NCBI GenBank assembly: GCA_028713535.1
Contig: JAQTOC010000006.1
Coordinates: forward strand, 1 to 54,197
From: Candidatus Nanoarchaeia archaeon
GTDB taxonomy: Archaea > Nanobdellota > Nanobdellia > SCGC-AAA011-G17 > JACPNG01
Reading direction: 5' to 3'
Length of the DNA: 54,197 nucleotides
The notes under the pieces were generated by a model. That model did not search any database, had not been told where the DNA came from, and saw only the letters and a program-made list of their open reading frames with translations. The translations under genes and the position numbers were made by a program. Of the stretch, positions 1,010 through 25,342 are shown in pieces (the stretch's first letter is position 1; each line of letters begins with the position of its first letter).

Positions 1010-2221
1010 ATGGAAAGACTAAGGGTTAACGGGCTTAATGTAGTTTTGGATAAAACAAAAGGAAATTCTGTCGTTGTCCTTGTAAGCGTCAAGGTTGGCT
1101 CAACTTACGAGAATAAGAATAATGCAGGAATTTCTCATTTAATTGAGCACATGGTCTTTGAAGGGACTAAGACAAGGACCTCTCAGGAGATAAGCAAGAC
1201 AATTGAGCAGTTTGGCGGGGAGCTTAATGCTTTTACAGATTTTGAGAAGACAGTATATTATGTCAGGATTGCAAAAAAACACGTAGAGCCTGCTTTGGAT
1301 ATTCTCTCAGATGTAATAAAGAATCCAACCTTTGAGCAAAAATCCCTTGAGAAGGAAAAGAAAGTCGTCGCTGATGAAATAAACATGATCTTTGACGACC
1401 CAAAGATGTATCAGTGGTTTTTTTTATTGAGAAACCTGTTCCAGAAAAATCCTGTTAAGAATCCAATTTACGGAAAAAAGGAAACAGTGTTGAATCTTTC
1501 AAGGCAGTCAGTAATTGATTTTTATAAAAAATATTATGTCAGGGATAACCTTGAATTAATTGTTGTTGGCAATTTTAATAAAAAAAGAATAATAAAATTG
1601 ATTAAAAATTATTTCAATAACATAAAAACCGGAAAGGTCTTGAGGAGAAATAAAATCCTTGAAAAACCATTAAATGCAAAAAAACAATGCACAGAGATAA
1701 AGAAAACAAAGCAAAGCTATATTGTATTTGGATTTAAAACAGTCCCAAGAACTAAAAAAGATTCATATGTTTTTGATGTGTTAAATGCAATATTGTGCAG
1801 GGGCCAGTCCTCTAAACTCTTCGAAGAGATACGAACAAAAAGAGGTCTCGCATACATTCTTGGTTCATACCTTGAAGAAGGCTCTGACTATGGATTTTAT
1901 GGTATTTATGTAGCCTCAAACATAAAAAACTTGGTTCAGATAAAAAAGATTGTTTTTGATGAAATCCAGAAATTAAAGCACATAAGCTCTGAAGACCTTA
2001 AAAAAGCAAAGAACTACCAAGAAGGGTCATATCTTCTTGAAACAGAAGATAACGAAAAAAAAGGTGCGCTTATCGCTTCATGGAGCTTGTGCAGCAACCT
2101 GGATGGTTTGATAAATTACATTAAGCAGATAAACAAGGTAACCAAAGAAGACATAAGCAGAATCATTGATTCTTACATGAACGAGCGCAATTCTGCCATA
2201 GTAATTATAAAACAAGTTTGA
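1010..2221 (+). CDS. M16-family zinc metallopeptidase (pitrilysin/processing-peptidase type)
   Basis: A 403-residue protein with the inverted zinc motif HLIEH (residues 43-47) and the distal zinc ligand Glu123 in VVADEINMIFDDP, exactly 76 residues after the first His as expected for M16. The second half carries a typical M16 C-terminal lobe segment, EEIRTKRGLAYILGSYLEEG. The length matches single-unit M16B peptidases that work as dimers. There is no signal peptide, so a cytoplasmic role in peptide breakdown or quality control is likely. The ATG is two bases after the M29 gene stop, so the two are probably cotranscribed. M16 genes are common in bacteria and patchy in archaea, which suggests old acquisition (inference). 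Confidence 0.9.
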   Translation: MERLRVNGLNVVLDKTKGNSVVVLVSVKVGSTYENKNNAGISHLIEHMVFEGTKTRTSQEISKTIEQFGGELNAFTDFEKTVYYVRIAKKHVEPALDILSDVIKNPTFEQKSLEKEKKVVADEINMIFDDPKMYQWFFLLRNLFQKNPVKNPIYGKKETVLNLSRQSVIDFYKKYYVRDNLELIVVGNFNKKRIIKLIKNYFNNIKTGKVLRRNKILEKPLNAKKQCTEIKKTKQSYIVFGFKTVPRTKKDSYVFDVLNAILCRGQSSKLFEEIRTKRGLAYILGSYLEEGSDYGFYGIYVASNIKNLVQIKKIVFDEIQKLKHISSEDLKKAKNYQEGSYLLETEDNEKKGALIASWSLCSNLDGLINYIKQINKVTKEDISRIIDSYMNERNSAIVIIKQV

Positions 2222-2281
2222 TTTGGTATATATTTTTGAGCAACATAATTTTTATAAAAGAAGTTTTTACTTAAAAGAGTA

Positions 2282-2509
2282 ATGAGTATCTTACTAAAAG
2301 TATTGGTGGTAATTGGAATTGTTATTGTTCTTATTATATTCCTTAAGCTATCAAAGAAGAACCCGAAAAGGTATTATAAAAAAGCAATGAAGATGCATAA
2401 GAAAGGCGAGGAGTATCATAACCTTGGTGACAGGGAATTGGCTGAAGAATACTACCAGGATGCTGATTACTACCGAAATAAGGCAAGGGAGTTAGAAGAT
2501 GTGGTTTGA
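2282..2509 (+). CDS. Small membrane-anchored helical protein
   Basis: 75 residues: one hydrophobic helix (residues 3-22) followed by a charged, Tyr-rich helical tail with AEEYY and DADYY, resembling a single TPR-like hairpin. A TATA-like element (TTTATAAAAG, 2250-2259) lies about 27 bases before the ATG, consistent with a leaderless transcript. Its last codons overlap the start of the next gene by 11 bases, so it is likely translated together with the AAA ATPase at 2499 and may tether it to the membrane (inference). No family was recognised. Confidence 0.7.
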   Translation: MSILLKVLVVIGIVIVLIIFLKLSKKNPKRYYKKAMKMHKKGEEYHNLGDRELAEEYYQDADYYRNKARELEDVV

Positions 2510-3350
2510 AGAGCTTGGTTTTGATGAGAGTCCATTTGAAGATTCTCCAGAATCCAGAATGATAGGATATGATGATGTTATTGAGGATTCTTTGTATAAT
2601 GCATATGCCGGAAATATAATCTTCTTGGAAGGTAAAGAAGGCTCAGGCAAAACTTCAATATTAAAAAGAGTTATTCATAAATTTAAAGGACAGGGCAAGG
2701 TTGTTTACTTAAAGTGCAGCGAAATAAAAGACCTTAATGTTGAGGAAGTTTTGATAAAAAAATACGGCATTATAAGAAGGTTGTTCAGCAAGACCCCAAA
2801 AGATATGATTTTGTTGTTTGATGACATTGAGGATTTATCAAGAAAAAACACAGAAAGGATAAAATACTTTTATGACCAGGGATACATAAGAAGCATAATA
2901 TTTACAGGCATCAATTATAAAAGATTGAATTTCAGCGACAGCCTTAAGGACAGGATAACAAAGATTGTAAAGATACCTGACCTTAATGACAATGACGCAA
3001 TTGAAGTCGTTGAGGAAAGGTTGGAAGGAAAAGACCTTATTCCTGAAAACATAATCAAAGAGGCATTCAAGAGATCAAATAAGAACGTTAAGGCATTCTT
3101 GAAGACCTGCGAGGACCTTGTAAGGTATGCTCTCCAGGAAAAGTCTGAAAAAGTTACAGATGAGCATGCAAAAGTTATTTTTGAAGGGGAAAGGATTGTA
3201 AAGGAAAAGGAAGAGCCAAAAGAAGAAAAGCCAAAAAAATCAAAGAAAAACCCAAAAGAAGAAAAGCCCAAGGAAAAAACCAAGGAAGTTGTTTCAGATG
3301 ATGATGGCATCAAGGTAATTTATGAAGACATTGCGGAGAAATATTATTAA
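2499..3350 (+). CDS. AAA ATPase, ExeA/TniB-like, copy 1
   Basis: 283 residues. The opening WFEELGFDESPFE followed by a P-loop near residue 45 (EGKEGSGKTS) and Walker B (DMILLFDDIEDL) is the layout of ExeA/TniB-like AAA ATPases, whose N-terminus typically reads F-x-x-x-P-F before the P-loop. A helical lid follows with RSNKNVKAFLKTCEDLVRYAL, then a long Lys/Glu tail from about residue 230. Such ATPases act as switches on a partner complex; the partner is not evident. It overlaps the small membrane protein upstream, and the next gene encodes a paralogue with the same layout. Function beyond ATPase is not assigned. Confidence 0.78.
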   Translation: MWFEELGFDESPFEDSPESRMIGYDDVIEDSLYNAYAGNIIFLEGKEGSGKTSILKRVIHKFKGQGKVVYLKCSEIKDLNVEEVLIKKYGIIRRLFSKTPKDMILLFDDIEDLSRKNTERIKYFYDQGYIRSIIFTGINYKRLNFSDSLKDRITKIVKIPDLNDNDAIEVVEERLEGKDLIPENIIKEAFKRSNKNVKAFLKTCEDLVRYALQEKSEKVTDEHAKVIFEGERIVKEKEEPKEEKPKKSKKNPKEEKPKEKTKEVVSDDDGIKVIYEDIAEKYY

Positions 3351-3351
3351 A

Positions 3352-4047
3352 ATGGAAATCTGGTTCAGAGAAATAGGATTTTGGAGCAACCCGTTTAATA
3401 TAAAGCCAAGTGCTTTTGACAATGAAATCTATGGGTATGATACAGACTTGATACTAAGCAAGATTGAAAGCGGCTCAATTTTGTTTATTGAAGGCGATTA
3501 TGGAAAAGGCAAGACCGCAATCTTGAAAAGAATAATTGACAAGTTTGGCGGAGAGAAAAAGCTGATTTATTACTCCTGCAATAGAACTGAAAATAATATC
3601 AATGTTGATGAACTGATTAAGGGAAGAACATTCTGGACAAGATTGTTTGGCAGAATGGGAAATGATATGATCTTGTTGCTGGATGAATCTCAAGATTTGA
3701 GCGAAACCGATGCAAAAGTAATAAGGGACCATTATGGAACTCACTTTAAGTCAATTGTGTTTGTGAGCTCTGACCCTAAGACTCTTAAGATAGACGGCTT
3801 AAAGGACATGGTTGGGGAGAATATAGTTAAGCTAGGCAAGTTAGATGAAAACGTTGCTATTGACATTGTAAGAAAAAGAATCGGAAGTTTGGATATTCTA
3901 AGTAATGACATGATTAAGGAAATATTCAAGAGATCTGATTTTAATCCAAGGCACTTATTGCAGAATTGCGAGAAAGCATGCAAGCTGGCAATCAAGAAAG
4001 GTGATTTGAAAGTAACCAAGGAACACTTGAAAGAAGTTTTTGGATGA
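3352..4047 (+). CDS. AAA ATPase, ExeA/TniB-like, copy 2
   Basis: 231 residues from the ATG at 3352, one base after the stop of copy 1. A longer frame reaching back to 3322 exists, but starting at 3352 aligns the N-terminus (EIWFREIGFWSNPF) with copy 1. P-loop GDYGKGKTA, Walker B DMILLLDESQDL, and lid with RSDFNPRHLLQNCEKACKLA match copy 1 in order and spacing, so the pair arose by tandem duplication. It lacks the charged tail of copy 1. Adjacent paralogues of this type may form mixed rings (inference). Confidence 0.78.
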   Translation: MEIWFREIGFWSNPFNIKPSAFDNEIYGYDTDLILSKIESGSILFIEGDYGKGKTAILKRIIDKFGGEKKLIYYSCNRTENNINVDELIKGRTFWTRLFGRMGNDMILLLDESQDLSETDAKVIRDHYGTHFKSIVFVSSDPKTLKIDGLKDMVGENIVKLGKLDENVAIDIVRKRIGSLDILSNDMIKEIFKRSDFNPRHLLQNCEKACKLAIKKGDLKVTKEHLKEVFG

Positions 4048-6462: not shown

Positions 6463-7758
6463 TTAAGGTCTAAACCTCAAAGGTGTTCTTGGGAAAGGAA
6501 TTGAATCTTTGATGTTATCTAAGCCGCAGATCCATGACAATAATCTTTCTACCCCCATTCCAAATCCGCCATGTGGAACGCTTCCATATTTTCTTGTGTC
6601 TAAATAGAATTTATACTCGTCTATGTTTTCTCCTTCTTCCTTAAGCCTCTGTATTATTTTTTTCTCATCAGACTCTCTTTCAGAGCCACCAATCAACTCT
6701 CCATAATGCTCAGGTGCAATAAAGTCAACCCCATGAACTACCTTTGGATTTTTATCATCTTCTTTCATATAAAATGCCTTGACTTTTTTAGGATAATTAA
6801 TAACAGCAACAGGAGTGTCAAACAAATCTGAAAGCTTGTCCTCTTCAACAGTTCTCAGGTCTTTTCCCCATGGGATTTTAACCCCCTGTTTCTCAAGTAA
6901 CTTCAATGCTTCATCGTAAGTTATTCTTTGGAACTTTTTCTTTACAGTTGGCTCTAATTTTTTAGGGTCTCTTTCAAGGATTTTTAGTTCTCCCTGGTTG
7001 TTTTCTAGGACTTTTTTAACAACGTGTTTTATCAGGGCTTCACCATGATCAATAATATCTTCAAAATTTGCCCAGGCAACTTCCATTTCTGCGTGCCAGT
7101 ATTCTGTTAGATGCCTTGATGTTTTGCTTTTCTCAGCCCTGAATGAAGGCGCCATAGTATAAATTTTTTCTAAAGCAAATATTGCTGGCTCTGCATATAG
7201 CTGCCATGTCTGTGCTAAAAATACTCCTTTGTTTCCAAAGTAAGGAACTGGAAATAAAGTACTCCCTCCCTCGCATTGTACAGACTGGAACATTGGACTT
7301 TGATACTCATAAAAATTATTGCTTCTGAAATATTCATGAATAGCGCCAAAAACAGTAGACCTTATCTTCATTATTGCAATCATCTTTCTTGATCTCAGCC
7401 ATAAATGCCTGTTGTCAGCCAGGAATTCAGTGCTCTGATCCTTGTTTATTGGAAATGGCTCTGAATAATGAATAACTTTTAGATCATCAACTTCAATTTC
7501 ATAACCTGTTGGCGCTCTGTTGTCTTCTTTTATTGTTCCTTCTATCTCTACAGAGCTTTCTATCAATATTTTTTCAGCACTCACCCATATCTTTTCATTT
7601 ACTTTTTCTTTTTTTATAACAGTCTGGATAATATTTGATGAATCCCTAATTATTAGGAAAATAAATTGGTTTGATTTTCTTTCTCTGTAAACCCAGCCCC
7701 TTATGGCTACTTTTCCAGAGCCTTTTTTCATTGCTTCCTGAATCTGGATAAATTTCAT
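6463..7758 (-). CDS. asnS: Asparaginyl-tRNA synthetase, archaeal type
   Basis: 431 residues from the ATG at 7758. Class II synthetase charging tRNA-Asn. An OB-fold anticodon-binding domain (about residues 15-110, with VAIRGWVYRERKSNQF) precedes the catalytic domain: motif 2 FRAEKSKTSRHLTEYWHAEME and motif 3 GGFGMGVERLLSWICGLDNI ending in IPFPRTPLRFRP. The WHAEME segment and the C-terminal PFPRTP favour Asn over Asp specificity. The frame extends 13 codons further upstream, but a TATA box (7774-7787) lies inside that extension about 25 bases before the chosen ATG, so the shorter form with a leaderless mRNA is preferred. With AspRS at 12258-13553, Asn-tRNA need not be made by transamidation. 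Confidence 0.93.
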   Translation of the reverse strand: MKFIQIQEAMKKGSGKVAIRGWVYRERKSNQFIFLIIRDSSNIIQTVIKKEKVNEKIWVSAEKILIESSVEIEGTIKEDNRAPTGYEIEVDDLKVIHYSEPFPINKDQSTEFLADNRHLWLRSRKMIAIMKIRSTVFGAIHEYFRSNNFYEYQSPMFQSVQCEGGSTLFPVPYFGNKGVFLAQTWQLYAEPAIFALEKIYTMAPSFRAEKSKTSRHLTEYWHAEMEVAWANFEDIIDHGEALIKHVVKKVLENNQGELKILERDPKKLEPTVKKKFQRITYDEALKLLEKQGVKIPWGKDLRTVEEDKLSDLFDTPVAVINYPKKVKAFYMKEDDKNPKVVHGVDFIAPEHYGELIGGSERESDEKKIIQRLKEEGENIDEYKFYLDTRKYGSVPHGGFGMGVERLLSWICGLDNIKDSIPFPRTPLRFRP

Positions 7759-7773
7759 AGTTTTAATCTGGGG

Positions 7774-7787
7774 TATAAATATAAAAA
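7774..7787 (-). promoter_or_regulatory. TATA box of asnS
   Basis: On the minus strand this reads TTTTTATATTTATA, centred about 23 bases before the asnS ATG, the usual archaeal spacing for transcription starting at or next to the start codon. Confidence 0.6.
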
Positions 7788-7802
7788 GGTTACTCATTTA
7801 TT

Positions 7803-8075
7803 TTACAGCCCAAAATCCTCAACAAAAGTTGTGATGTTCTTGTATTTCTCAAGATAATGAAACCCCTTGTCAGTCAGGCAAAAATACTTGTCTTTTTTGT
7901 TTTCAAGTGCTTTTATAAATTCTTTTTCTAACAACTCAGAAACATACTCTGAAAATCGTTTTGTAGACAAATTTGACTTTCTTAACAAAGGAGTGTATTT
8001 TATCCTGTTCTGGTTTTTGTTGATAACATTCAGGATGTCATAGATAATCTCTAATCGTCCTCTTTTTTTGTCCAT
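7803..8075 (-). CDS. Winged-helix transcription regulator (archaeal HTH_45 type)
   Basis: 90 residues, a single winged helix-turn-helix. The opening KKRGRLEIIYDILNVI, the recognition segment LLRKSNLSTKRFSEYVSELLEKEFI and the wing YFCLTDKGFHYLEKY match the small archaeal wHTH proteins of the ArnR/SSV type. It would bind DNA as a dimer. It starts seven bases after the stop of the upstream membrane protein gene (8082-8759), with an AGGATGA ribosome binding site, so the two form an operon and the regulator may respond to or control the membrane protein. Its target is not evident. Confidence 0.82.
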   Translation of the reverse strand: MDKKRGRLEIIYDILNVINKNQNRIKYTPLLRKSNLSTKRFSEYVSELLEKEFIKALENKKDKYFCLTDKGFHYLEKYKNITTFVEDFGL

Positions 8076-8081
8076 CTTGAT

Positions 8082-8759
8082 TCATCCTGTTCTCTTTATT
8101 ACAGCGTAAAAAATTGATAAAAACGTTCCGATTGACACCAAATAAATAATTATCTTGGATGTACTGAAGAAATCAGGTGTTAATGTCCCAATTGTGTTTA
8201 ATACCCAGAAAATAAACAAAAGGATGTATATTGTAAGGTTGCTTTTCACTCCTTTTTTCTTGCCTGACTGGATATATCTTCTGTAAGCTATTAGTGAGGC
8301 AACTGAAATTACTAAGCATTGCAAAATTAACAAGATTAGAGTGCTTTGAATGGCCACTCCTATTGCTGAAACTAATGCAATCCCAATATGAATCCATCCA
8401 ATCTTTTTTGAGTTCTTGTCCCATTTTTCCCAAATCATGCTATACAATAAATAAACTATTGCCATAGTACTGGTGTATATGAAAAACGTGGAACTAACAG
8501 ATCCGAGTAATCTTGGATTAAATTCAAATATCCTTGAAGCCTCAAACAAGGTTAAAAGGAAAAATATAATGAACCTGATAAAGAAAGCTACTGCAAAAAA
8601 CAAAAATGCATCCCTGAAATATTTTATTCCTTTGTGTGTTGTTAAGTTATAAAGCTCTTTTGTTTTAAAGTATATCATTAAGCTGGAAACAATAATTATG
8701 AAAGAATAGATTATTTCTATTTCAAATCCAGGCATTAAAAAAATTCTTGGGTGTATCAT
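8082..8759 (-). CDS. Polytopic membrane protein, about seven helices
   Basis: 225 residues from the ATG at 8759. Hydrophobic segments follow one another through the whole length with short charged loops (for example KTKELYNLTTHKGIKYFRDA between helices 1 and 2), giving about seven helices. A TTG five codons upstream could extend the frame, but a T/A-rich box at about 8783-8791 fits a transcript beginning at the ATG. Proteins with this layout are common in small archaeal genomes; function is unknown. The downstream HTH gene is in the same operon. Confidence 0.7.
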   Translation of the reverse strand: MIHPRIFLMPGFEIEIIYSFIIIVSSLMIYFKTKELYNLTTHKGIKYFRDAFLFFAVAFFIRFIIFFLLTLFEASRIFEFNPRLLGSVSSTFFIYTSTMAIVYLLYSMIWEKWDKNSKKIGWIHIGIALVSAIGVAIQSTLILLILQCLVISVASLIAYRRYIQSGKKKGVKSNLTIYILLFIFWVLNTIGTLTPDFFSTSKIIIYLVSIGTFLSIFYAVIKRTG

Positions 8760-19852: not shown

Positions 19853-20656
19853 ATGGCGCAGGTAATTGGTGTTATATCACTAAAAGGGGGAGTAGGAAAA
19901 ACATCTACTGTGGTTTCTCTGGGCGCTTCTTTGGCAAAAGACTTTAGTCAAAGAGTTTTGATTGTTGATGCAAATTACTCAGCCCCAAACCTCGGGCATC
20001 ATTTTGGATTAACTAACCCTGAAAAAACAATACAGGATGTCTTGTCTGACAAAACAGACATCAAGGATGTTATTCATGAGCATGAAGACTCAGGTTTGCA
20101 TATAATCCCTGCTGCGATGATAGCAAGAAAAGTCCAGGATCCTTTTGCATTAAAAAAGAAATTAAACCAAATAAAAAAATATTATGATTATATTTTAATT
20201 GATTCAAGCCCTTCATTGAATGAGGAAATTGTTTCCACTATGGCTGCATCTGACCAGTTGTTTGTTGTTACAACTCCAGATACTCCAACGTTAGAATCAA
20301 CAATGAAAGCAATAAGAATAGCAAGGCAGAAAAGCATCCCTATTACAGGTTTGATTTTAAATAAGGTTAGAGGCAAGAATTTCGAGACGAGCATAGAAGA
20401 CATTGAAAAACTGACCGGAGTTCCTGTTATAGCTAAAATAAGGGATCATGACCATGCTCTTGAAGCAGTAGCCAAACAGCATCCTGTGACAATGTTAAAA
20501 GAGAAAAGCCCTGTTTCCATTGAATACAAGAAACTTGCTGCAGCAATAACTGGAAAGCATTATTCAGACCCAAGATTCCATGCAAAAGTTGCTGATGCAT
20601 TCAGGAGACAGCCTGAAAAACAAGTGATTAACAGGCACATTTTGTATTATTCTTAG
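19853..20656 (+). CDS. ParA/MinD-family ATPase
   Basis: 267 residues. Deviant Walker A KGGVGKTS near the N-terminus, VLIVDANYSAPNLGHHFGL (Walker A' Asp), and YDYILIDSSPSLNEEI (Walker B). The ATP-dependent dimer sandwich of this family positions cellular cargo on membranes or nucleoid. There is no clear C-terminal amphipathic membrane-targeting helix: the end is HAKVADAFRRQPEKQVINRHILYYS. No ParB or MinE partner is adjacent. It is called MinD-like because chromosomal single-copy archaeal members usually are (inference). Its stop overlaps the end of the radical SAM gene by four bases, convergent. Confidence 0.9.
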   Translation: MAQVIGVISLKGGVGKTSTVVSLGASLAKDFSQRVLIVDANYSAPNLGHHFGLTNPEKTIQDVLSDKTDIKDVIHEHEDSGLHIIPAAMIARKVQDPFALKKKLNQIKKYYDYILIDSSPSLNEEIVSTMAASDQLFVVTTPDTPTLESTMKAIRIARQKSIPITGLILNKVRGKNFETSIEDIEKLTGVPVIAKIRDHDHALEAVAKQHPVTMLKEKSPVSIEYKKLAAAITGKHYSDPRFHAKVADAFRRQPEKQVINRHILYYS

Positions 20657-22143
20657 TCTTTAGTTTCACAGACTGGTTTTACAGATGGAATATATGGTCT
20701 GGAAGGCTGGATATATTCTTCTTCCCATCCAATAACTCCTTTAGCATCTAAAACTAAATCCGGATTTATCTTTCTTATATCTTCAAATGTTTTTTTGATT
20801 TCATCCAAAATATCTCTTCTTGTAATTCCGTTTGTAGACTGTTTTAGGAAATCCTCACTTATCTCAGGTATTTCTATTAAATCTCTATCTCCATACTTTT
20901 CTTCCATAGCAGGATCTTTTAGTAGTTCCCTGTAGTCTGGAGATCCAGGTAAAATAATTTGAGGACTTATCAAAACCCAGCTGGTGTTGTCATACTCAGC
21001 TAATTTTTTTGCTAAGCCTGTAGTTACTTCCATAGACTCAGGGGTTTCTCCTCTTCCTCCTAAAATAAAGCTTGCATGTAATTGTATGTTATTTTCTTTA
21101 AGTAAATCAACGTTTCTTAGCATATCATCGAGACTAGTCTCTGGTTTTTTGTAGTTACGTCTCATGTTTGGGTCTGCAGACTCAACCCCTACCTGGAAAA
21201 TTAGGTGTTTACCGTATCTGCTCTGTAATGTTTTAATATTCTCAGGAGTGATGCTCTCTGCTCCTATAAAAACCCTAAACCAGGAATCGTCTAAACCTAT
21301 TGGGTTTTTATTTTTAAGATTGACTGTATCCTGTACATTGAAGAATCCTCTTATTCCAAATTTAGTATATAATTCTTTAACAATTTCTTCTTCTCTTTTT
21401 CCTTCCATTAATCTAAAACCTAATTCATTTCTGCCACAAAAAGTGCAGGTATTCATCTTTGATACGAGATCAGTATATTCTTTAAAATTATATTCTGTTT
21501 CTAATCCTTTTGTGCTTCTTTTTGCACAACCCTTCCCAGCATAATAAGAAACCGCATTTCCAAATCCCCTTTCCCTAGCTTGTTTTAGGAACCTTTTCAT
21601 GTCAAAAAGAGAATAATTTATGTTTGGGAGTTCCCCCAAATTTGGAATATATATCCTCTCCGGAGGAATCACTTTTCCATCTTTGTCTCTAGATGCAAGA
21701 TTAGGTATTCCCTCTAAAGATGAATCTCCTAAAATTTTTCTTTTCACAATTTCAGAAAAAGGAATTTCCCCATCATACAAGACAACCCCATCAATAAATT
21801 TCCTGTTTTTTAACATATTATTATATAATGCAGAAGAATTTACTCCTCCAAAGAAAACATCTGCTCCGTTTTTCTTAGCTCCTTCAGCAAGTTTATAACT
21901 ATTCTTTTGACTTGCAAGTGTAGGAGCAAACCCAACAATGTTTGGTTTGAAATTCTTTAAAGATTCTATTTGCTCACCATGTGGGATTATAGAACTGTCA
22001 AGTATTTTAATATCTATTTGGTCTCCAAACTTTTGTTTACAGTATGTAGCTATCGAACCAAGGCCTAATGGTAAGGTATAAGTAACCGTATTTGTAATGC
22101 TTCCCTCGCATTCTGGATATATTAACATAATTTTTGTTTCCAT
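20653..22143 (-). CDS. Radical SAM protein with B12-binding-like N-terminus and stretched Cys motif
   Basis: 496 residues. Residues 1-150 resemble the Rossmann-like domain of B12-dependent radical SAM enzymes (LGLGSIATYCKQKFG; NIVGFAPTLASQ; DVFFGGVNSSAL) but lack the DxHxxG cobalamin ligand motif. The cluster cysteines appear as Cys206 (YAGKGC), then Cys233 and Cys236 (NTCTFCGRNELGFR), so the usual C-x3-C-x2-C is replaced by C-x26-C-x2-C. Downstream, IFQVGVESADPNMRRNYKKP and QLHASFILGGRGETPESME are typical radical SAM barrel strands. Reaction and substrate are unknown. It is divergent from the TrmB-like regulator. Confidence 0.82.
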   Translation of the reverse strand: METKIMLIYPECEGSITNTVTYTLPLGLGSIATYCKQKFGDQIDIKILDSSIIPHGEQIESLKNFKPNIVGFAPTLASQKNSYKLAEGAKKNGADVFFGGVNSSALYNNMLKNRKFIDGVVLYDGEIPFSEIVKRKILGDSSLEGIPNLASRDKDGKVIPPERIYIPNLGELPNINYSLFDMKRFLKQARERGFGNAVSYYAGKGCAKRSTKGLETEYNFKEYTDLVSKMNTCTFCGRNELGFRLMEGKREEEIVKELYTKFGIRGFFNVQDTVNLKNKNPIGLDDSWFRVFIGAESITPENIKTLQSRYGKHLIFQVGVESADPNMRRNYKKPETSLDDMLRNVDLLKENNIQLHASFILGGRGETPESMEVTTGLAKKLAEYDNTSWVLISPQIILPGSPDYRELLKDPAMEEKYGDRDLIEIPEISEDFLKQSTNGITRRDILDEIKKTFEDIRKINPDLVLDAKGVIGWEEEYIQPSRPYIPSVKPVCETKD

Positions 22144-22230
22144 TTTTTATAATTTCCCACTTCTTAGTGACAATTTATAATGACATCCATTCTTGTATTT
22201 AAACCTTTGTTGTTTTTTATTGACAACAAG

Positions 22231-22240
22231 ATTTATATAT
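22231..22240 (+). promoter_or_regulatory. TATA box of the TrmB-type regulator
   Basis: ATTTATATAT centred about 25 bases before the ATG at 22261; it decides the start, because the frame extends upstream through this element. Confidence 0.6.
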
Positions 22241-22260
22241 CCTTGATTTATGTTTATCTG

Positions 22261-22995
22261 ATGGACCCAGAAAAGCTAAAACAGATAGGTTTAAACGAAA
22301 AAGAAAGCAAAGTCTATCTTAGCTTGCTTGAATCAGAAGACTGTTTAGTTTCAGAAATTGCTGAAAAAACAAAAATCAATCGTACATTATTATATTCCAT
22401 TCTCTCAGATTTATCAAACAAAGGCATAGTAACTTACATCCTAAAAAACAATACAAGGTATTACAGGGCAGCAGAACCTGAAAAAATGCTTTCAATGCTA
22501 AAAGAAAAAGAAAAGTTCTTTGAGTCTATTCTCCCCGAACTAATTTCATTAAAAAAACCAAAAACAAAAAAGCCTTTGGTTGAAATCCTTGAAGGAAGAG
22601 AAGGAATAAAAACAATCTTAAATGATCTTTTGAGGATTAAGCAGGAATGGTTTGCATTTAATATTCCAGGCAAGGGACCAGAAATCATTGGCCCAACTGT
22701 AGAGGCTTTTGAAAAAGAAAGGCAAAAACAAAAAATTATACTTAATGTGCTCTGTGTCAAAACAACAGAGGGAATAAAAAGAGGAAAAGAATTTTCCCAG
22801 ATGAAGTTTACAAACGTAAGATTTATGCCTGAATCTTATGAATCTCCTGCATCAAACTGGATTTATGGAGACAGAGTTGTTGTTATTTTTTGGTATAAAG
22901 AATTTCCATTTGCAATAAGGATTATAGACAAGAACTTGGCAGAAAGCTATAAAAATTATTTCAAGGCTTTATGGAAGGTTGCTAAAGAAGATTAA
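22261..22995 (+). CDS. TrmB-family transcription regulator
   Basis: 244 residues from the ATG at 22261. N-terminal winged helix KQIGLNEKESKVYLSLLES with TKINRTLLYSILSDLSNKG as recognition region, then a linker EPEKMLSMLKEKEKFFESIL and an effector domain (from about residue 105, VEILEGREGIKTILNDLLR) of the TrmB C-terminal type. TrmB proteins sense sugars or other metabolites and repress or activate nearby genes. It lies head to head with the radical SAM gene, a natural target. The 27 upstream codons in frame contain the TATA box and are not part of the protein. Confidence 0.88.
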   Translation: MDPEKLKQIGLNEKESKVYLSLLESEDCLVSEIAEKTKINRTLLYSILSDLSNKGIVTYILKNNTRYYRAAEPEKMLSMLKEKEKFFESILPELISLKKPKTKKPLVEILEGREGIKTILNDLLRIKQEWFAFNIPGKGPEIIGPTVEAFEKERQKQKIILNVLCVKTTEGIKRGKEFSQMKFTNVRFMPESYESPASNWIYGDRVVVIFWYKEFPFAIRIIDKNLAESYKNYFKALWKVAKED

Positions 22996-23581: not shown

Positions 23582-25342
23582 TTACTCCAGTACAGCTTTA
23601 ATCCTTCTTATCCCAGAAGCAGAGCTTTTTTCTTTGATAATCTTGAACTTTCCAATCTCTTTTGTGTTTTTAACATGAGGTCCAGCACAAACTTCCTTTG
23701 AAAAATCTCCAATAGAATAAGCAGAAACTTCTTCCCCGTATTTATCTCTGAAAAATGCCAAGAATCCTTCTTTCTGTGCATCCTTGAATTTTTTAGTTTC
23801 TTTTTTTACAGGCAAGCATTCCCTTATCTTTTTATTTACAATGTCTTCAACCTTTTTCCTTTCCTCTTCAGTTAATGCTCTGTTAAAAGTAAAATCAAAT
23901 CTAATCCTCTCAGGAGTTAAGTCAGAACCAGCTTGCCTTACTTCTTTTCCTAAAACTTCTCTTAAAGCTTGATGTAATAAATGCGTTGCAGTATGCTGTC
24001 TAGCTACCTGTTCTCCAAAGTCTCCGACACCGCCAAACTTCTTTTCAACTCCAGCTCTTGAAATTTCCTGGTGCTTCCTGAACATCTCATCGAATTCATT
24101 TTCGTTAACACTTAATTTTTCCTTTGAAGCCAGTTCCTTTGTTATTTCTATTGGGAATCCATACGTATCATACAGTTTAAATATATCCTCTGTTGGCAGT
24201 TCTTTTTTCTTTAGTTTTTTTGTTTCATCAATTATTATCTTAATTTCAACAAAACCCTTGTCAAGGGATTTCTGGAATTTGTCTTTTTCTTCTTTAATTA
24301 TTTTTAATATTTCTTTTTTGTTTAATTCTTTATATTGATTAATTATTAAGTTGCATAAATCAATAATCTCGTCTTCCTTTGCGCCAAGTAAGCTCAGGTA
24401 GCTTATCGCCTTTCTCAAAACTCTTCTTAAAATATATCCTTGTTCTATATTCGAAGGCCTTACTCCATCTGAAACCAGGAATACAGTTCCTCTTAGATGG
24501 TCTGCAATTATTCTTTCCATCCTTTCTGTGTCTTTGTCTTTTTTATACCCAATCTCTCTTATCTTGTTGATAATCTCCTGGAACGCATCTGTCTCAAAAA
24601 TATTATTTTTCTTTTGCACTATCATTGAAATTCTTTCCAATCCCATTCCAGTATCAATATTCTTTGATGGCAAAACCTCGTATTGTTTTTTTTCATTGAA
24701 ATTATACTCCATGAACACCAAGTTCCAAATTTCTAAGAATCTTCCGCAGTCGCAGTTAGGCCCGCATTTCTTTCCTTTGTTGCATGGCTTTTGTGTTAGG
24801 TCATAATGCATTTCTGAGCAAGGGCCGCATGGTCCAGTAGCTCCTGGAGGGCCCCAGAAATTTTCCTTTTCTCCAAATTCGAATATTTTCTCTTCTGCAA
24901 TTCCTTGTTTTTTCCACAACTCAATTGCATCCATGTCTTTTGGAGCATCATTATTTCCTTTGAACACAGTAACCCATATTCTTTTTTTGTCCAGTTTTAG
25001 CTCATCAGTCAAGAATTTTAAAGCATAATTTATTGCATCTTTTTTAAAATAATCCCCTATTGAAAAGTTTCCAAGCATCTCAAAGAAAGTTAAATGGCTT
25101 TCATCTCCAACAGATCCTAGGTCAGAAGTCCTGAAGCATTTTTGCACAGAAGTTAATCTTCTTGATTTTAATTCCTTTTCTGGGTTTTTTTCGCCTTTGA
25201 AATAAGGAACAAACTGCTGCATGCCTGCTGTTGTTAATAAAACAGTCTTGTCTGAAGGAAGTAAAGATGAAGATTCAATTATTTTATGATTGTTTTTCTT
25301 GAAAAATTCCAGGAACTTGTTTGCTATTTCCCTTGATTTCAT
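23582..25342 (-). CDS. alaS: Alanyl-tRNA synthetase, bacterial type, without C-Ala domain
   Basis: 586 residues against about 870 for a complete AlaRS. Bacterial-type catalytic domain (IIESSSLLPSDKTVLLTTAGMQQF; FEMLGNFSIGDYF; GPPGATGPCGPCSE; a Cys cluster at 187-199; RFLEIWNLVFMEY), tRNA-recognition helices, and a complete editing domain with HTATH (His450, His454) and Cys552-x3-His556. The sequence stops at SSASGIRRIKAVLE, just where the C-Ala oligomerisation and tRNA-binding domain would begin. The next gene begins immediately and is unrelated, so the end is natural. TATA box at 25364-25377. Synthetases lacking C-Ala are seen in other reduced genomes. Confidence 0.92.
   Translation of the reverse strand: MKSREIANKFLEFFKKNNHKIIESSSLLPSDKTVLLTTAGMQQFVPYFKGEKNPEKELKSRRLTSVQKCFRTSDLGSVGDESHLTFFEMLGNFSIGDYFKKDAINYALKFLTDELKLDKKRIWVTVFKGNNDAPKDMDAIELWKKQGIAEEKIFEFGEKENFWGPPGATGPCGPCSEMHYDLTQKPCNKGKKCGPNCDCGRFLEIWNLVFMEYNFNEKKQYEVLPSKNIDTGMGLERISMIVQKKNNIFETDAFQEIINKIREIGYKKDKDTERMERIIADHLRGTVFLVSDGVRPSNIEQGYILRRVLRKAISYLSLLGAKEDEIIDLCNLIINQYKELNKKEILKIIKEEKDKFQKSLDKGFVEIKIIIDETKKLKKKELPTEDIFKLYDTYGFPIEITKELASKEKLSVNENEFDEMFRKHQEISRAGVEKKFGGVGDFGEQVARQHTATHLLHQALREVLGKEVRQAGSDLTPERIRFDFTFNRALTEEERKKVEDIVNKKIRECLPVKKETKKFKDAQKEGFLAFFRDKYGEEVSAYSIGDFSKEVCAGPHVKNTKEIGKFKIIKEKSSASGIRRIKAVLE

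Follow-up and report, generated by a model that had tools for sequence, protein, structure and literature searches.

A radical SAM protein with a C-x26-C-x2-C cysteine motif and a divergent TrmB-type neighbour in DPANN archaea

A CX3CX2C motif is the usual hallmark of radical SAM enzymes. The stretch of DNA that we analysed (the window, 54,197 nucleotides from a Candidatus Nanoarchaeia archaeon) encodes a protein in which the first two cysteines of this motif stand 26 residues apart, which raises the question of whether they can still hold a [4Fe-4S] cluster and what the additional residues would be for. Translation of 22143-20656 on the reverse strand gives 496 residues, with C206 within YAGKGC and C233 and C236 within NTCTFCGRNELG. 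The C-x26-C-x2-C spacing claimed in an earlier note on this DNA is thus exact; the segment between C206 and C233 is 23 residues above the canonical spacing. The note had also seen no other close cysteine triple, and indeed there is none, because the only cysteines in the protein are C12, C35, C206, C233, C236, and C492. The Pfam Radical_SAM model (PF04055) matches residues 231-374 at 38.2 bits against a cut-off of 29.5. This match begins beside the second cysteine, the outcome expected of an insertion after the first. The B12-binding model (PF02310) falls just below its cut-off over residues 21-132 (29.6 bits against 32.1). Among the NCBIfam models the protein passes no cut-off; it scores 37.9 bits against 500 for the B12/rSAM family TIGR04190 and 35.9 bits against 281.85 for TIGR03975 (rSAM_ocin_1, a RiPP C-methyltransferase subfamily).

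Table 1. Coordinates of the radical SAM gene, the divergent regulator gene, and the elements between them (positions in the window).
Feature	Position	Strand	Basis
Radical SAM protein, 496 aa, C206-x26-C233-x2-C236	20653..22143	-	translation; PF04055
Radical SAM core, Pfam match	21022..21453	-	PF04055, G000
B12-binding-like Rossmann domain, residues 21-132	21748..22083	-	PF02310; Rossmann pattern in model
Cys206 codon, proposed first [4Fe-4S] ligand	21526..21528	-	invariant 9/9
26-residue segment Cys206-Cys233, residues 207-232	21448..21525	-	length kept 9/9; helix in two models
Cys233-Thr-Phe-Cys236 codons, proposed second and third cluster ligands	21436..21447	-	invariant 9/9
TTTAAATA, TATA-like box of radical SAM gene	22196..22203	-	read from sequence; conserved block; putative function
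Palindrome TTGTTGT-N9-ACAACAA, proposed operator	22207..22229	.	pattern search; 5/5 divergent pairs
TTTATATA, TATA-like box of regulator gene	22232..22239	+	read from sequence; conserved block; putative function
TrmB-type regulator, divergent	22261..22995 (ORF opens 22180)	+	PF01978; start 22261 probable, from alignment

The x26 spacing is shared by a small family of nine members, each counted once: the window protein, L003 (genome G012), L004 (G002), L006, L007, L008, L009, L010, and L119 (G509). The eight relatives are 45-57% identical to the window protein and all have x26; L006, L008, and L009 are the genes of G432, G417, and G400 (100% identity), and L010, a fragment of 300 residues, is counted as the G329 gene. 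Among 190 relatives, matches at E <= 1e-20 occur in four genomes, namely the window's own (G000), G002, G012, and the more distant G164. In the one scan that extended to other phyla, run on contigs with the window protein as the single query, by which only close relatives are detectable, 43 stretches matched a pattern and five encode a relative, all from Woesearchaeota or Pacearchaeota. An eight-row alignment run against 371 genomes of the phylum yielded nine genomes at E <= 1e-30, seven of them with x26 (G000, G002, G012, G329, G400, G417, and G432) and two with shorter spacings (x10 in G164 and x12 in G237). In a second set of 287 genomes, which may overlap the first, seven genomes matched; G509 provided the new x26 member, and G526 and G530 have x6 and x8, counted by eye. 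A single scan of viral contigs, also run with the eight-row alignment, recovered no relative.

All nine members carry GKGC-x26-CxFCGRNE at identical length, and they share no cysteine other than C206, C233, and C236. At the sequence level, each therefore has the conserved cysteine triple expected of a [4Fe-4S] cluster site in the radical SAM superfamily; the canonical CX3CX2C, a motif that is common in the superfamily and not obligatory, is absent from all nine. L119 was found after the family had been defined, and it fits in spacing, regulator, and palindrome. Within the insert, 5 of 26 positions (K208, R209, Y218, Y223, and M230) do not vary among the nine members, compared with 66 of the first 309 residues; constraint on the insert is thus similar to that elsewhere in the protein. 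We considered C35 as an alternative ligand and rejected it, given that it is invariant in the first eight members and Ser in the ninth (L119). H55 (codon at 21979-21981 on the reverse strand), at the start of the second Rossmann helix, is also invariant in all nine, together with E57 and Q58, even though the protein has no standard cobalamin His motif.

How unusual is this spacing among the closest relatives of the family? We sought relatives of the x10 and x12 proteins in the 371 genomes, 69 of which matched at E <= 1e-25, and read the motif in all 30 loci among the matches listed. The GC/DC context of the first cysteine persists in these relatives, with spacings of 3, 4, 5, 6, 7, 8, 9, 10, and 12. 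We then compared 37 rows in an unrooted tree, namely seven x26 proteins, 28 of the 30 listed loci (the other two being repeats of family members), and L077 and L081, the radical SAM neighbours of TrmB-type genes. L005 (a repeat of L042), L002 (a paralogue from the window's own genome), the fragment L010, and the later-found L119 were excluded. L007, which reads as x4 owing to an extra cysteine inside the loop, was treated as x26. Alignment columns filled in fewer than 60% of rows were removed, which takes the insert out of the comparison.

The 37 rows comprise 15 with x3, 15 with x4-12, and 7 with x26. The x26 rows form one clade with support of 100/100, and their sister (100/99) is the pair L077 and L081, both of which are CX6CX2C and both of which also have divergent TrmB-type neighbours; being unrooted, the tree does not give the direction of change. 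The earlier note had held that non-standard spacing is rare and marks special subfamilies. The second part is borne out by the x26 clade; the first is not true of the surrounding branch, since the x26 proteins and their sister sit in a 24-row group with 14 rows of x4-12, 7 of x26, and only 3 of x3. The opposite group of the same unrooted tree has 13 rows, 12 of x3 and one of x4. As judged from these sequences, the loop between the first and second cysteines is an insertion hot spot on this branch, with x26 as its extreme. In the window's own genome, 20 proteins match Radical_SAM: 17 are CX3CX2C, one is CX4CX2C (L039 on contig 17, with YCKVGTCKFC), one is the window protein, and one, L035, has a start that falls outside the stretch examined and is presumably Elp3-like.

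The ladder of shorter spacings and the invariance of the triple in all nine members support C206 as the first cluster ligand, making it very probable that the three cysteines hold the cluster, as had been proposed from the window alone. Alternatively, a residue other than C206 could complete the cluster site with C233 and C236, or the protein might have ceased to be a radical SAM enzyme. The distance from C-x3-C and the uncertainty of the predicted structure at the loop would fit this reading, but C206 is invariant in its GKGC context with no shared cysteine beyond the triple, the relatives likewise have their first cysteine at the end of a strand, with spacings of 3 to 12, and the remaining core still scores above the PF04055 cut-off; we regard a C206 that is not a ligand as very improbable. 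A frameshift, an assembly error, or a recent insertion would be the simplest source of an odd spacing. The same length in nine open frames from separate assemblies leaves such an origin next to no probability, and we rejected it.

We generated two AlphaFold2 models from six sequences each, one with the window protein first (mean pLDDT 78.2, pTM 0.80) and one with L008 first (74.8, 0.78). The window model shows a radical SAM barrel and a Rossmann domain. In both models the insert is predicted to form a short strand and a helix, at residues 217-219 and 220-228 in the window protein and at 230-232 and 233-242 in L008 numbering; pLDDT drops below 50 at residues 203-212 of the former model and 215-226 of the latter. 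The best fold matches of the window model are AprD4 (a radical SAM diol-dehydratase, Z 23.1 over 393 residues, 15% identity), OxsB (22.2), CysS (22.1), TsrM (21.7), MgmA (20.7), and TokK (20.0). With the family profile, a search of PDB sequences returned three matches only: queuine lyase (6p78), AprD4 (6fd2), and MgmA (9ccb). The predicted order of a Rossmann domain before the radical SAM barrel and C-terminal helices is that of the class 1 cobalamin-dependent enzymes; in OxsB, TsrM, TokK, and CysS these three parts align over about 407-421 residues with Z of about 17.5-22. The identity to the window protein is only 11-16%, and cobalamin binding in the window protein is putative. These four enzymes presumably have CX3CX2C spacing, in contrast to the x26 of the window protein.

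Does the enzyme use cobalamin? By eye, the translation contains no DxHxxG, in agreement with the earlier observation that no cobalamin His motif is present in the N-terminal domain. This absence is not decisive because OxsB, TsrM, and TokK, which resemble the window protein in this respect, bind cobalamin without a His ligand (PMC13331322). Profile searches of the window's own genome found neither a class II ribonucleotide reductase (NrdJ, TIGR02504) nor a PduO-type adenosyltransferase (PF01923), which says little about cobalamin binding; among the seven x26 carriers, NrdJ is found in three, above the cut-off in only one, and the PduO-type enzyme in none. With PF02310 under its cut-off and neither of these genes in the genome, cobalamin use lacks independent support. 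We give methyl transfer with cobalamin a little less than an even chance.

A cobalamin-free hydrogen abstraction is a serious contender, though we would not bet on it. AprD4 abstracts hydrogen with the 5'-deoxyadenosyl radical and is not known to use cobalamin. By analogy, the N-terminal Rossmann domain would be a structural remnant, and the reaction a dehydration, epimerisation, or rearrangement. The position of AprD4 as the top fold match, the sub-threshold PF02310 score, and the missing NrdJ and PduO-type genes all point in this direction. On the other hand, the Z scores of OxsB, CysS, and TsrM lie within about 1.5 of that of AprD4, the window protein gives no match to the NCBIfam AprD4 model (NF033070) up to E 0.1, and T75, S78, and G99-G100, at what we take to be sites of contact with the cobalamin tail in the B12 fold, do not vary among the nine members. 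The insert itself could instead bind a macromolecule (RNA, DNA, or protein), which the enzyme would then modify in place of a metabolite. The invariant K208-R209 and the aromatic residues of the insert are compatible with such a role, as is PoyC, whose extended loop accompanies a peptide substrate (PMC5682303), and an ATP-dependent DNA ligase gene lies beside the x26 gene of G012 and an x7 relative in G249. However, no RNA- or DNA-binding domain was found with Pfam or NCBIfam, and no ligase is seen beside the other x26 genes, whose neighbours vary. We consider a macromolecular substrate rather unlikely.

Lengthened cluster loops are known in other radical SAM enzymes. Elp3 has a longer cluster loop, and so does QueE, which is not known to have a B12-like domain. 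QueE is listed with CX14CX2C, HmdB with CX5CX2C, and PhnJ with CX2CX21CX5C (PMC4389238). The QueE insert is shorter than that of the window protein; we take QueE as a precedent for a long loop only. PoyC and PoyB, B12-dependent peptide C-methyltransferases, have Cx7Cx2C (PMC5682303, PMC11285071), a lengthened loop between the same two cysteines in B12-dependent radical SAM enzymes, although with 7 residues rather than 26. We noticed no RiPP-like cluster around the window protein. Among the open-licence papers searched, we found no description of CX26CX2C and none that combines radical SAM, Woesearchaeota, and B12-binding. Unusual cluster motifs are already in print, and what sets the B12-domain radical SAM subfamily of the window protein apart is the extreme length of its cluster loop; given the long loops of QueE and PoyC, x26 is a variation within an established enzyme class and not a new system.

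The divergent regulator that had been noticed next door is an ORF at 22180-22995 on the forward strand. Pfam assigns it to TrmB through its N-terminal winged helix (PF01978, 54.9 bits against a cut-off of 25.6), and it matches the solved TrmB 3qph weakly (E 3.1e-4, profile positions 5-106). Its C-terminal domain has no match among Pfam models or PDB sequences, and all NCBIfam TrmB models stay under their cut-offs (TrmBL1 at 34.4 bits against 650, the others lower). A divergent TrmB-type gene stands beside the x26 gene at the window, L006, L008, L009, and L119, five of the eight members with visible upstream DNA; the regulators at L006, L008, and L009 are 68-77% identical to that of the window. 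Other genes take its place upstream of L003, L004, and L010, while L007 begins at a contig end. Since these three of eight members have no regulator adjoining, the x26 enzyme does not need one. In a search of the 371 genomes, the four best regulator matches are exactly those beside x26 genes (487-498 bits), followed by L075 and L076 (400 and 350 bits) and then by matches of 250 bits and lower. G002 and G329 have regulator matches only near 1e-45 and G012 has none at 1e-40; from these searches, the true partner looks absent from all three genomes.

Between the two genes lies a palindrome with an AT-rich box on either side; by sequence, the two boxes resemble TATA elements facing in opposite directions. 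It occurs once in the window with up to one mismatch allowed, compared with 0.02 expected by chance, and it is kept in all five divergent x26-regulator intergenic regions, where the L009 copy has one mismatch. The same palindrome also precedes L075 and L076, related regulators with no radical SAM neighbour, and so it belongs to the regulator subfamily and not to the enzyme. With spacers of N8-10, five of nine genomes searched had a match: two sites in G000 and one each in G417, G432, G012, and G312, with none found in G002, G400, G329, or G212. The second G000 site is N8, and a reversed control pattern also gives one site in that genome. The G012 palindrome is far from its x26 gene, while that of G312 lies directly upstream of the regulator of an x6 relative. 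To judge from this distribution, the regulator, where present, seems to serve this intergenic region specifically. As a diagnostic of the x26 enzyme it is weakened: a radical SAM relative lies next door by BLAST (flanks of about 1.5 kb) in 7 of the best 30 regulator loci, and the fifth and sixth best, L075 and L076, are not paired. These two face other genes, an ORF of 176 residues with no assigned function and an apparent substrate-binding protein, and this may offer clues to the ligand of the regulator.

The remaining neighbours of x26 genes differ between genomes, with only the TrmB-type gene recurring; in the x26 loci compared, no conserved neighbour points to a substrate. Divergent pairs of TrmB-type and radical SAM genes also exist outside the x26 family, in G212 and G312 (both x6), G249 (x7), G217 (x8, with a flavin reductase gene in between), and G296 (x3, with a small ORF in between). 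On contig 3 of G002, a TrmB-type gene is divergent from an x4 radical SAM gene, with another radical SAM gene between them. We found no such pair by title in the open-licence literature on archaeal TrmB or Woesearchaeota.

Several loci are worth recording in their own right. At that G002 locus (L103, 935-6022), the CX4CX2C gene, the second radical SAM gene, a deoxyhypusine synthase gene, and a PLP-dependent decarboxylase gene are co-oriented and together divergent from the TrmB-type gene, an arrangement that could represent a hypusine- or polyamine-related operon. In G217 (L101, 2417-7083), the CX8CX2C gene lies between the flavin reductase gene and a gene with thymidylate synthase, pterin-binding domain, and MtrA matches. 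The ligase genes are co-oriented with their radical SAM neighbours (L105 in G012, 6964-8649; L108 in G249, 2091-3956). The gene that follows the x26 enzyme in G509 (L119, after 2725) we take, by eye, to be RNA 3'-phosphate cyclase-like. In the window, an alanyl-tRNA synthetase-like ORF at 23582-25342, recognised by eye, has 586 residues (592 in its G002 counterpart), which is presumably short relative to the archaeal norm.

Radical SAM enzymes in general cleave SAM to a 5'-deoxyadenosyl radical. The explanation that we favour, and think likely as a whole, is that the window protein is such an enzyme from the cobalamin-domain branch, with its cluster-binding loop lengthened between the first and second cysteines. 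C206, C233, and C236 would hold the [4Fe-4S] cluster, and SAM would bind the fourth iron and be cleaved there to the radical. The insert, K208-R209 followed by a strand-helix element with Y218, Y223, and M230 and with no further conserved cysteine, would lie beside the cluster and most likely determine specificity, either as a lid or through contact with the substrate; the enzyme probably modifies an unactivated carbon. Where it is present, the TrmB-type product would bind the palindrome between the TATA boxes and act as a common switch for the two genes; its signal would probably be a small ligand connected with the reaction.

For this archaeal B12-domain branch, we tentatively suggest, at somewhat less than even confidence, that the stretch between the first and second cysteines, 3 to 26 residues long, is a hot spot for building substrate-selecting lids beside the cluster, with x26 the longest seen here, and that together with its dedicated TrmB-type switch the enzyme forms a self-contained, ligand-regulated radical module in DPANN archaea. 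A branch that mostly breaks CX3CX2C would be missed by motif scans or called degenerate. Its graded spacings offer a natural series for how far a cluster loop stretches and what the extra residues do, and the dedicated regulator provides a handle on the substrate, since its ligand should relate to the reaction.
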